A program made the translations under genes and the position numbers. The notes below the pieces were generated by a model. That model had not been told where the DNA came from and ran no database searches. It worked only from the letters and a program-made list of their open reading frames with translations. This document shows positions 4,282 to 63,469 of a stretch of 64,000 bases of DNA, piece after piece. The stretch is from Haloarchaeobius sp. HME9146 (GTDB lineage Archaea > Halobacteriota > Halobacteria > Halobacteriales > Natrialbaceae): the NCBI RefSeq assembly GCF_025399835.1, contig NZ_JAODVR010000001.1, positions 2,976,001 to 3,040,000 of the forward strand. Direction: 5' to 3'. Every line of letters starts with the position of its first letter. Within the stretch, counting starts at the first letter, position 1.

Positions 4282-4356
4282 GCTCCGTTGGTGTAGTCCG
4301 GCCAATCATCTTGCCCTCTCACGGCAAGGACCAGGGTTCGAATCCCTGACGGAGCA
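4282..4356 (+). tRNA. tRNA-Glu (CTC)
   Basis: 75-nt cloverleaf. The acceptor arm GCTCCGT/ACGGAGC pairs 7 of 7 with discriminator A. Anticodon stem TTGCC/GGCAA encloses loop CTCTCAC, giving anticodon CTC. The T-arm has GGTTCGAATCC. CCA is not encoded. Confidence 0.96.
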
Positions 4357-4493
4357 CTTTTCCAATCTCGAATCGGCGAGCAACAGCGAGCCGTGTTCAA
4401 GTTCAAAAGTGCGCACGGAAGGGATTCGAATCAGGGAGCGAAGCGAACGCAGTGAGCGGAGAGACCGTGGTTCGAATCCCTGACGGAGCACTT
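4354..4493 (+). repeat. tRNA-Glu 3'-tail composite element
   Basis: Three parts lie directly behind the tRNA. (1) Inverted repeat GCACTTTT/AAAAGTGC, arms 4354-4361 and 4405-4412; the left arm includes the tRNA's last three bases. (2) An imperfect inverted T-arm copy near 4418-4432. (3) After a GAGCGAAGCGAACGC-type linker, a 25-nt exact direct copy of the tRNA 3' end (4469-4493 equals 4335-4359, offset 134 bp). No D-arm or anticodon arm is present in the copy, so it is not a second tRNA. Confidence 0.8.
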
Positions 4494-4623
4494 CTCACGA
4501 AGCAACTCACCGAGCGATAGCGAGGGGTGTTCGATTCTATGGATGCACCGGAAGGGAAGTGATGGGCAGTCTTGTGAATTCGGCCAGCGACACGCACCGA
4601 TGGCTCACCCGGCAGAAATGCTT

Positions 4624-5011: not shown

Positions 5012-5149
5012 TGGGTTGGGGCAGATGTTGAACCTCACTCGCACCGCGTCGCGGTGCTCGCTGGTTCAAATCTACCCGGACCAATTTACGAAACACGTTG
5101 TACTCCTCGCGCGCTACGCGACGCTCGTCGGTATCGTGTTTCGTAAAAA
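5012..5149 (-). repeat. tRNA-Val 3'-tail composite element
   Basis: Read on the minus strand from the tRNA 3' end: a perfect 13-bp inverted repeat (arms 5135-5147 and 5085-5097, CGTGTTTCGTAAA and its complement) starting 3 nt behind the tRNA; then an inverted T-arm copy near 5063-5080; a linker rich in GCGAGC/GACGCGG; and a direct copy of the tRNA 3' end (15 identical nt, 5012-5026 versus 5150-5164, offset 138 bp). Same plan as behind tRNA-Glu. Confidence 0.8.
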
Positions 5150-5224
5150 TGGGTTGGGGCAGATTTGAACTGCCGACTTCCTCCGTGTGAAGGAGGTGTC
5201 ATAACCGGACTAGACCACCAACCC
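5150..5224 (-). tRNA. tRNA-Val (CAC)
   Basis: 75-nt cloverleaf on the minus strand. Acceptor GGGTTGG/CCAACCC with discriminator A; anticodon stem CCTCC/GGAGG encloses TTCACAC, anticodon CAC; T-arm GCAGTTCAAATCTGC. Confidence 0.96.
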
Positions 5225-37218: not shown

Positions 37219-38073
37219 TCACTCGTTGAGTGTCAGGCAGGCAAGCGTCGCGAACAGAGCTTCCTCCGTTCTCACGACCTTGCTGCCCTGGTGCGGAATC
37301 GAGTTCAGCCAAAGGTCGAACCCTCCGGCGTTGGGTTCGGTGGCGTCCTCGTGTCGAGCGGCCAGTTCGGCCACGTCGATTCCGAGTATTTCAGGCAGCC
37401 CTCGCCCCGGTGACCCGAACACGACGGTCATGCCGTCGCGCTGGATCTGCCCGGTCAGGTTCGCGAGTCGCCCCACGGTGAGTTCTTCACCGTGGCGCGA
37501 GGTCGCGATCCGGAGCCCCGCGTCGGGGCGGTCGAGCGCTGTCTGGAGGTCCGTGCGTTCGACGACCAGCCCACCGATGGGCTCGTCGACGAGTCGCGCA
37601 CGGACCGGACGTCGCGAAGATACCCTGACGATTACGCGTTCTCCCTCGTCTGGCACCGCCATATCGGGTGGTGCGACGAGCGAGATCGGGTGTTGCAGTC
37701 CGCAATTGACCCGGACGCGCCTGTCAGGTCCGACCTCGGTCACGATTCCCTGTCTTAACGACCCCGAACCGTCTGATTCGGAGCCGGTCTGTGGTGAGGC
37801 GCGGAGCGGCGGCAAGATACCGGCGTACTCCAGTTCGCTTCGATGCCCCCACGCCTCCTTTCGGAGGTAAGGGGGCGTCGTCGCGTATTCGAGTACGGTG
37901 CTTACGAACCCGCCACCCCATCTGGTCTCGCCGTCTTCGTCGGGGAAGACGACCAGCCTGTCTGCCCGGAACACCGTCGCCGCGCGGGCGACGTAGCCGA
38001 CCTTGCGAGTTGCCTCGCGTTTGTCTTCGGCTTCCCGGACGAGGGATGACGGCACGAGCACGCTGATGGTCAT
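37219..38073 (-). CDS. SPOUT-family putative RNA methyltransferase
   Basis: 284 residues. The N-terminal part has the trefoil-knot fold start (SVLVPSSLVREAEDKREATRKVGYVARAATVFRADRLVVF), an OB-like insertion (about 110-170) and a C-terminal knot with VVFGSPGRGLPEIL. It fits the archaeal COG2106 group, related to an RNA uridine methyltransferase family, which is regularly encoded just before rpl3. Target probably rRNA. First gene of the long block. Confidence 0.88.
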   Translation of the reverse strand: MTISVLVPSSLVREAEDKREATRKVGYVARAATVFRADRLVVFPDEDGETRWGGGFVSTVLEYATTPPYLRKEAWGHRSELEYAGILPPLRASPQTGSESDGSGSLRQGIVTEVGPDRRVRVNCGLQHPISLVAPPDMAVPDEGERVIVRVSSRRPVRARLVDEPIGGLVVERTDLQTALDRPDAGLRIATSRHGEELTVGRLANLTGQIQRDGMTVVFGSPGRGLPEILGIDVAELAARHEDATEPNAGGFDLWLNSIPHQGSKVVRTEEALFATLACLTLNE

Positions 38074-38345: not shown

Positions 38346-38427
38346 CGAAGCGCACTGGTAGTGTAGTGGTATCACGTGACCTTGCCATGGTCACAACCTG
38401 GGTTCAAATCCCAGCCAGTGCATTTCT
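38346..38427 (+). repeat. 82-bp direct repeat, copy 1 (contains tRNA-Gly)
   Basis: Identical over 82 bp to 40298-40379, offset 1952 bp. Contains the whole tRNA-Gly plus 6 upstream and 5 downstream bases. Confidence 0.9.
38352..38422 (+). tRNA. tRNA-Gly (GCC), copy 1
   Basis: 71-nt cloverleaf: acceptor GCACTGG/CCAGTGC plus A, anticodon stem TGACC/GGTCA enclosing TTGCCAT, anticodon GCC, T-arm CTGGGTTCAAATCCCAG. The region behind it (38423-38677) shares GAGCGACCGCG..GCGTGTCGCGAGAAC with the tail of copy 2 but has only a weak T-arm copy near 38565-38575. Confidence 0.96.
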
Positions 38428-40297: not shown

Positions 40298-40379
40298 CGA
40301 AGCGCACTGGTAGTGTAGTGGTATCACGTGACCTTGCCATGGTCACAACCTGGGTTCAAATCCCAGCCAGTGCATTTCT
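40298..40379 (+). repeat. 82-bp direct repeat, copy 2 (contains tRNA-Gly)
   Basis: Second copy of the 38346-38427 repeat; together they bracket 1.87 kb of small genes. Confidence 0.9.
40304..40374 (+). tRNA. tRNA-Gly (GCC), copy 2
   Basis: Identical to the copy at 38352-38422 in all 71 nt. Confidence 0.96.
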
Positions 40380-40584
40380 CAGTATTCAACTACCACGAGC
40401 GACCGCGACAGCGTGTCGCGAGAACGTCGTGAATACTGGAAATCTCGACACTGGGATTTGAACCAGCGAGCAGTGCGCGGTTCGGAGCAGAGCGAGAACC
40501 GCGACGCGAACGGTGAAGCCGTGAGCGAACGCAGCCGAGCGGAGCGAGGTCGTGCGAGTGAGGTTCACAATCCCAGCCAGTGCA
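40373..40584 (+). repeat. tRNA-Gly 3'-tail composite element
   Basis: Inverted repeat CAGTATTCA/TGAATACTG (arms 40380-40388, 40430-40438) enclosing a 7-bp CGCGACA/TGTCGCG stem; inverted T-arm copy near 40449-40476; GAGCGAACGCAGCCGAGCGG-type linker; direct copy of the tRNA 3' end (16 identical nt, 40569-40584 versus 40359-40374, offset 210 bp). The rest of the 40375-40767 gap is AT-richer promoter sequence. Confidence 0.75.
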
Positions 40585-63095: not shown

Positions 63096-63315
63096 TGGCC
63101 GGGGCGGGCTCCGAACATCGGTCACTCCACTCGCTACGCTCGCTTCGCTCCCTTTCGCCGGCTCACATTCGTTCGCCGGCGATTCAATCAGAGACGAGCT
63201 CTGACAGCCTCCCGCTCACTGCGTTCGCGGGAGCCGTAAACGGGTTCGTCACGTCTACCGGCACATTTCTGCCGGCGTCGTCACTCACTATCGTTCGTTC
63301 CTCGCAGCAGAAATG
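63096..63315 (-). repeat. tRNA-Met 3'-tail composite element
   Basis: Read away from the tRNA (leftwards): inverted repeat CATTTCTGC/GCAGAAATG (arms 63264-63272, 63307-63315, the latter overlapping the tRNA end), GC-rich palindromic linkers of the GAGCGAAGCG/CGCTTCGCTC type, and a direct copy of the tRNA 3' end with 21 identical nt (63096-63116 versus 63314-63334, offset 218 bp). Confidence 0.75.
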
Positions 63316-63469
63316 GCCGGGGCGGGCTCCGAACCCGCGATCTCCGCATGACCCAGGTCCGAGACTTGGCGGGTCCCGTGGGGGCATGCATGAGCCTTCC
63401 CAGGCAGTTACCGCACCGAATCTCTAAACCCTATGAGTGCGGCGCTATGTCCAGCTAAGCCACCCGGCC
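63314..63469 (-). tRNA. elongator tRNA-Met (CAT) with intron
   Basis: 156-nt gene. Acceptor GGCCGGG/CCCGGCC plus A, T-arm GCGGGTTCGGAGCCCGC, anticodon arm CCGCA/TGCGG with loop CTCATA-A after removal of an 82-nt intron. Mature length 74. Intron position 37/38 and the elongator Met identity match known haloarchaeal tRNA-Met genes. Confidence 0.92.
63350..63431 (-). other. archaeal tRNA intron
   Basis: 82 nt between anticodon base 37 and base 38. Removal restores a 7-base anticodon loop; boundaries set by pairing could be off by one or two bases. The splicing endonuclease needs a bulge-helix-bulge, which the flanking GGG/CCC stretches can form. Confidence 0.8.

Follow-up and report, generated by a model that had tools for sequence, protein, structure and literature searches.

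Short non-coding DNA units that look like cassettes docked at the 3' ends of haloarchaeal tRNA genes

Why unrelated tRNA genes of a haloarchaeon should be followed by the same kind of non-coding element is the question raised by the sequence behind a tRNA-Glu gene in a stretch of 64,000 nucleotides (the window; G000:C1:2976001-3040000) that lies within a 4.19-Mb haloarchaeal genome of three contigs. Five tRNA genes were located in the window with ARAGORN and Rfam RF00005: Glu, Val, two Gly and an intron-bearing Met, the last of which (c63314-63469) is missed by the default tRNA scan and found once introns are allowed. The window also holds, at 37625-37727 on the minus strand, a strong match (75 bits) in a haloarchaeon to the Rfam L4-Archaeoglobi ribosomal protein leader. 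The initial annotation had described elements of 134-218 bp behind the Glu, Val, second Gly and Met genes, a degenerate form behind the first Gly gene, and a less clear inverted T-arm at Met. All four units were confirmed at the sizes stated (Table 1); behind the first Gly gene only a remnant is kept, and in the Met unit the inverted T-arm is indeed degenerate, yet the direct copy is perfect. On balance, and with slightly better than even confidence, the units are taken to belong to one family of haloarchaeal DNA cassettes, short and non-coding, that dock at tRNA 3' ends. They suggest a tiny insertion system, of a kind not described before, for which tRNA genes are the docking sites.

Table 1. 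Host tRNA genes in the window and the units behind them
Feature	Position	Strand	Basis	Remarks
tRNA-Glu(CTC), host gene	4282..4356	+	ARAGORN and Rfam RF00005	
Glu unit, whole	4357-4490	+		134 bp
Glu unit: T-rich trailer and hairpin 1	4357..4411	+	sequence, folding	apex GGCGAGCAACAGCGAGCC
Glu unit: inverted T-arm	4421..4432	+		GGGATTCGAATC
Glu unit: purine-rich linker	4433..4468	+		AGGGAGCGAAGCGAACGCAGTGAGCG...GACCGT; family common to other tRNAs and genera
Glu unit: direct copy of tRNA nt 52-73	4469..4490	+		identity 22/22
Beyond Glu unit: displaced trailer, then start of a further hairpin	4491..4540	+		CTTCTCACGAAGC...CCGAGCGATAGCGAGG
tRNA-Val(CAC), host gene	5150..5224	-	ARAGORN, Rfam	
Val unit, whole	5149-5012	-		138 bp; arms TTTACGAAACAC/GTGTTTCGTAAA
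Val unit: trailer and hairpin 1	5085..5149	-	sequence, folding	arms 5147-5136 / 5096-5085
Val unit: inverted T-arm	5063..5077	-		GGGTAGATTTGAACC
Val unit: linker	5035..5062	-		AGCGAGCACCGCGACGCGGTGCGAGTGA; inverted in sister species G003
Val unit: direct copy	5012..5034	-		GGTTCAACATCTGCCCCAACCCA; T-loop with one extra base
tRNA-Gly(GCC)-1	38352..38422	+		degenerate unit behind, only remnant CCCAGCCATGC kept
tRNA-Gly(GCC)-2, host gene	40304..40374	+	ARAGORN, Rfam	
Gly2 unit, whole	40375..40584	+		210 bp
Gly2 unit: hairpin 1 arms	40380-40388 / 40430-40438	+		
Gly2 unit: inverted T-arm	40451-40464	+		
Gly2 unit: linker	40465-40561	+		nested hairpins
Gly2 unit: direct copy	40562-40584	+		
tRNA-Met(CAT), host gene	63314..63469	-	ARAGORN with introns allowed	82-nt intron
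Met unit, whole	63096..63313	-		218 bp; two GA-type mini-hairpins, near 63177 and 63229
Met unit: inverted T-arm		-		degenerate
Met unit: direct copy	63116-63096	-		identity 21/21

The units share one order, in which the tRNA is followed by a T-rich trailer, a hairpin, an inverted T-arm, a purine-rich linker and a direct copy of tRNA nucleotides ~52-73, i.e. the 3' part of the T-arm, the acceptor strand and the discriminator. In this genome the order recurs behind most chromosomal tRNAs, with a trailer that reads CTTYTG or TTTTC. Predicted folds allow the direct copy to pair with the inverted T-arm, with the linker in between. The further hairpin beyond the Glu unit begins with a sequence similar to the start of that unit's own hairpin 1. 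Four genomes sampled broadly, together with extra loci, yielded 185 units with a median length of 123 bp, which leaves no room for a gene; 142 of the 185 copies begin no more than one base from G52, placing the copy edge inside the conserved core GGTTCRAATC that is common to most tRNAs, and most stop at the discriminator. A second form, found downstream of Ala-GGC, Ala-CGC, Arg-CCG and Arg-GCG in this genome, its congener G003 and Haloferax (G101), has a copy that begins near nt 59-61, a palindrome on the acceptor strand (nt ~61-73) and a linker that is pyrimidine-rich on the tRNA strand. The typical hairpin apex is 5'-GA(A/G)C-loop-G(T/C)GA-3' with a loop of GNA or GNNA; such apices are enriched behind tRNAs relative to the remaining sampled sequence, at 10/17 vs 7/132 with a GNA loop and 8/14 vs 10/70 with a GNNA loop. 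An extra base in the T-loop of the distal copy is frequent (TTCACAAT, TTCAACAT and TTCATAAT vs TTCAAAT) and recurs at the unrelated tRNAs Val, Gly, Phe, Ile, Thr and Arg in several genomes.

Two checks proposed in the initial annotation that might have refuted it, one across this genome and one in its relatives, both came out in its favor. When the 51 tRNA genes of the genome, found by Rfam, were analysed with their flanks, a direct copy of the tRNA's own 3' end scoring at least 12 was present within 320 bp downstream at 32/51, compared with 26/46 in the congener G003, 21/34 in another genus of the same family (G015) and 26/52 in Haloferax; the corresponding upstream controls gave 0, 0, 0 and 4 matches, the last suggesting that the Haloferax counts may be slightly inflated by adjacent identical tRNA genes. 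At a score of at least 15 the count in this genome is 23/51 tRNAs vs 0/51 upstream intervals. At the lower threshold copies were rare at ORF 3' ends (11/989, ~1%) and for random 30-mers (123/6000). These counts exclude chance. Moreover, the inverted T-arms fit their own tRNA better than permuted tRNAs in each of the four genomes (p <= 0.0002). The distribution is narrow: the unit was found behind 0/20 tRNAs in three genomes of other classes in the phylum, and the sole match in a second, phylum-wide set of 34 tRNAs was a halobacterial genome. Within the class, the tRNA-Glu(CTC) unit was present in about half of 30 relatives (counted by eye), and one linker form is carried by Haloferax, Halobellus, Halogeometricum, Halohasta and Halobium. 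On a secondary replicon of the same genome (G000:C2:576866-578673) a cluster of divergent Glu, Val, Ala and Asn tRNA genes, which looks acquired, has no downstream cassettes.

The units are still turning over. Tandem arrays reach five units, and their order varies with locus and species, as at the two Met genes of this genome and at Lys-TTT, which is X-Y here and Y-X-Y in the congener. The Gly-CCC array of G015 is A-B-A, with both A units identical in hairpin, inverted T-arm and linker, and identical units at distance two are in excess (11/52 vs 9/182). Strict A-B-A alternation as a rule was ruled out by adjacent identical units in the same genome, at Arg-CCT (A-A-A) and Val-GAC; partial duplicates also occur in arrays. 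Comparison of this genome with its congener yields filled and empty sites that differ exactly at the tRNA end at Lys-CTT (174 bp), Val-TAC (107), Lys-TTT (109), Val-GAC (118) and Thr-CGT, and at the first four of these the difference is exactly the insert plus one repeat. A candidate pair at Asn-GTT was not counted; its length offset of 226 bp fits, but the flank directly behind the copy fails to align. At Lys-CTT the empty site has the trailer CTTCTTC, and in the filled site this trailer follows the distal copy, whereas the tRNA itself is followed by a new one, CTTTTC. The original 3' end and its trailer have been displaced to the far side of the unit. Across 43 arrays, first copies score above last copies (p = 3.6e-5), which is consistent with addition next to the tRNA. 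From this decay, together with the tRNA-proximal differences, polar insertion rather than deletion is inferred, with the caveat that presence or absence alone cannot separate insertion from deletion between direct repeats.

Copies follow their tRNA, and linkers are exchanged. The Lys-CTT tRNA is not the same in all sub-groups of the genus: G001, G002, G004 and G005 have another 3' half, and both kinds of copy, direct and inverted, follow the change. Of 311 similar linker pairs, 258 link units of different tRNAs, and in 134 of these the genera differ too; in two Haloferax species the Phe loci have hairpin 1 in common up to the inverted T-arm and then different linkers. The linker of the Val-CAC unit in the window is matched in the congener at 97% by its reverse complement.

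Whether the structure is conserved as RNA or as DNA can be approached through the stems. Selection on RNA stems should make G-U pairs outnumber A-C mismatches, as is seen in tRNA acceptor stems (41 vs 0), whereas hairpin 1 has 9 G-U vs 16 A-C and the linkers 11 vs 15. None of 30 GNNA loops is a GNRA loop, so that neither the stem G-U tolerance nor the loop types of a structured RNA are found in the units. Triloops of the d(GNA) type, e.g. d(GCGAAGC), form unusually stable DNA mini-hairpins, and d(cGNNAg) tetraloops are also stable; the GNA triloop is favourable in RNA as well, less so. Folding energies of two units in the window are low with both DNA and RNA parameters and do not decide, and a Phe unit folded as DNA did no better than its own shuffles. 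A kink-turn or other protein-binding RNA motif was discarded on reading the sequences by eye, the three-base bulge being missing at the tandem G-A pairs in most hairpins. On the other side, the orientation of the units relative to the tRNA is nearly fixed, so one strand matters, as RNA or as single-stranded DNA. Taken together, the units look like DNA-level, tRNA-docked cassettes and not like an RNA terminator or viral debris.

A maintained RNA structure, whether a backup terminator, an element for 3' processing or a small RNA that mimics a T-arm, would account for the strong predicted RNA folding (z -4.7 and -8.0), for the T-rich stretches at both ends of the units and for their near-constant orientation; flipped linkers are rare, which indicates a constraint on one strand orientation that an RNA function could also explain. 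In Haloferax volcanii a hairpin was able to stop 59% of transcripts (PMC7237163), which also speaks for it. This account is nevertheless judged quite improbable, given the stem and loop counts above, the many same-type tRNAs that have no unit in sister species and the absence of an Rfam family match. The terminator or processing structure offered as one option in the initial annotation is accordingly not supported, and the one inverted linker speaks against it as well. The annotation's other option, tiny elements that inserted at tRNA 3' ends and left att-like duplications, comes near the preferred cassette reading except in the word "remnants", because complete units recur behind most tRNAs and their turnover between sister species continues. 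Debris of a different kind would be scars left where larger proviruses or plasmids had integrated at tRNA genes before deletion cut them down to about 120 bp. In favor of this, the usual attR is just such a direct repeat of a tRNA 3' end, and haloarchaeal proviruses leave one (PMC3119063). Yet one complete architecture in a narrow length range recurs at dozens of loci with no gene-bearing intermediate sizes, unrelated tRNAs have linkers in common, and no relatives were found in phage genomes or in IMG/VR, where a linker-pattern search returned six contigs that proved to be chance matches in coding sequence; scars are therefore a highly improbable source. A plasmid search returned tRNA-Glu matches only.

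A purely mutational origin is the more substantial rival, although it too is considered rather unlikely. Replication slippage, template switching and unequal recombination around the palindromic T-arm would duplicate the tRNA 3' end, and hairpin-templated repair would perfect the palindromes, with no dedicated enzyme and no function. Ordinary unequal recombination could indeed yield duplications, and the identical neighbors at Arg-CCT, the partial duplicates and the way that copies change with their tRNA are what such arrays would give; the inverted linker fits as well, since small hairpin loops can flip. Against it stand the linker families that are common to different tRNAs and genera, the equally sharp start of the copy at many tRNAs, the appearance of new unit types at the tRNA end, the confinement to one class and the almost fixed orientation.

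The cassette reading can be cast as a sequence of steps. A unit would enter by recombination inside the T-arm core GGTTCRAATC, as T-loop type integrases do; the incoming copy would rebuild the tRNA, and the old 3' end would become the distal repeat. Later exchange between T-arm copies may duplicate, delete, reorder or invert modules, and hairpin-templated repair may keep the inverted T-arm complementary. The form that is recognized or replicated is probably single-stranded DNA hairpins of the tRNA-sense strand. As the units encode nothing, a trans-acting enzyme, a tyrosine recombinase of the host or of an element, is assumed. A general search for the Phage_integrase domain found only six integrase-domain stretches in the genome, four of them above the cut-off, and none of the six directly behind a tRNA. 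The units may be selfish, or may be spare docking sites for integrating elements. A bolder version, tentative and unlikely, is an integron-like system free of genes: almost every tRNA could offer its T-arm as the docking site, and the recombining partner would be a hairpin of single-stranded DNA folded from inverted T-arm, linker and direct T-arm, giving renewable arrays of docking cassettes.

Archaeal tRNA-targeted integrative elements employ tyrosine recombinases and are bounded by attL and attR (reviewed in PMC8371274). The units resemble them in a direct repeat of the tRNA 3' end that bounds the insert and has its edge near the T-loop and, on the cassette reading, in insertion at the tRNA 3' end, rebuilding of the tRNA by the element and an original end that becomes the distal repeat; unlike them, they are 107-226 bp long, carry an inverted T-arm and hairpins but no integrase or other mobile-element gene, and lie behind roughly every second tRNA gene of a single genome. 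Archaeal integrons hold gene cassettes with attC hairpins (PMC9668308), and the units share with these the modular arrays, the changes in order and, by inference, polar addition at one end. Integron cassettes recombine at their attC hairpins, whereas for the hairpins of the units recombination is proposed; the units also differ in having no open reading frames and a separate version for each tRNA. No IntI was found with the general Phage_integrase domain search, and the attC core GTTRRRY is absent, their own core being GTTCRAAT with C as the fourth base. The units resemble in their working an integrative element docked at a tRNA and reduced to a minimum, with arrays as in integrons, yet they lack features that define each class: integrase and cargo on the one hand, the attC core on the other. 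REP/BIME sequences, MITEs and the palindrome-associated elements (PATEs) of Haloquadratum (PMC3119063) are likewise short non-coding palindromic repeats dispersed in genomes; in contrast, the units lie strictly at tRNA 3' ends with a 22-nt copy of the adjoining tRNA, and this tRNA end is their repeat, there being no terminal inverted repeats that bound them and no short target-site duplication as in MITEs. With CRISPR arrays they share tandem units and polar renewal beside a fixed leader-side gene, but the repeat is a tRNA end and the spacers are palindromic families rather than foreign fragments. No published description of the units was found, a novelty that is provisional as subscription papers and preprints lay outside the search.

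tRNA genes are favorite docking sites of archaeal viruses and plasmids. If the cassette reading is true, class-wide gene-free cassettes occupy, rebuild and duplicate these sites, tRNA-associated repeats would have to be reread, and many that are called provirus scars would not be such. The units would act as decoy or spare att sites provided by nature, and archaeal recombination of single-strand hairpins could be studied on them; since Haloferax carries them, tests are feasible in a standard laboratory organism.

Some loci carry hairpins of other arrangement. Downstream of tRNA-His in Haloferax (L205) a small palindromic insert (CGCGAGCGAAGCGAGCGTG...) splits the direct copy inside the T-loop, as if hairpin modules insert into hairpin loops. 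Behind Pro-GGG, in the present genome (C1:3123694 onward) and its congener (L184), there is an array of short GA-type hairpins, each followed by just the last 6-8 bases of the tRNA (GGTCCCA). Downstream of Leu-GAG, in the present genome, its congener (L186) and Haloferax (L217), a hairpin ending CCCACGCA is kept from one genus to another, whereas the units at other loci vary; it is perhaps a different, maintained structure.
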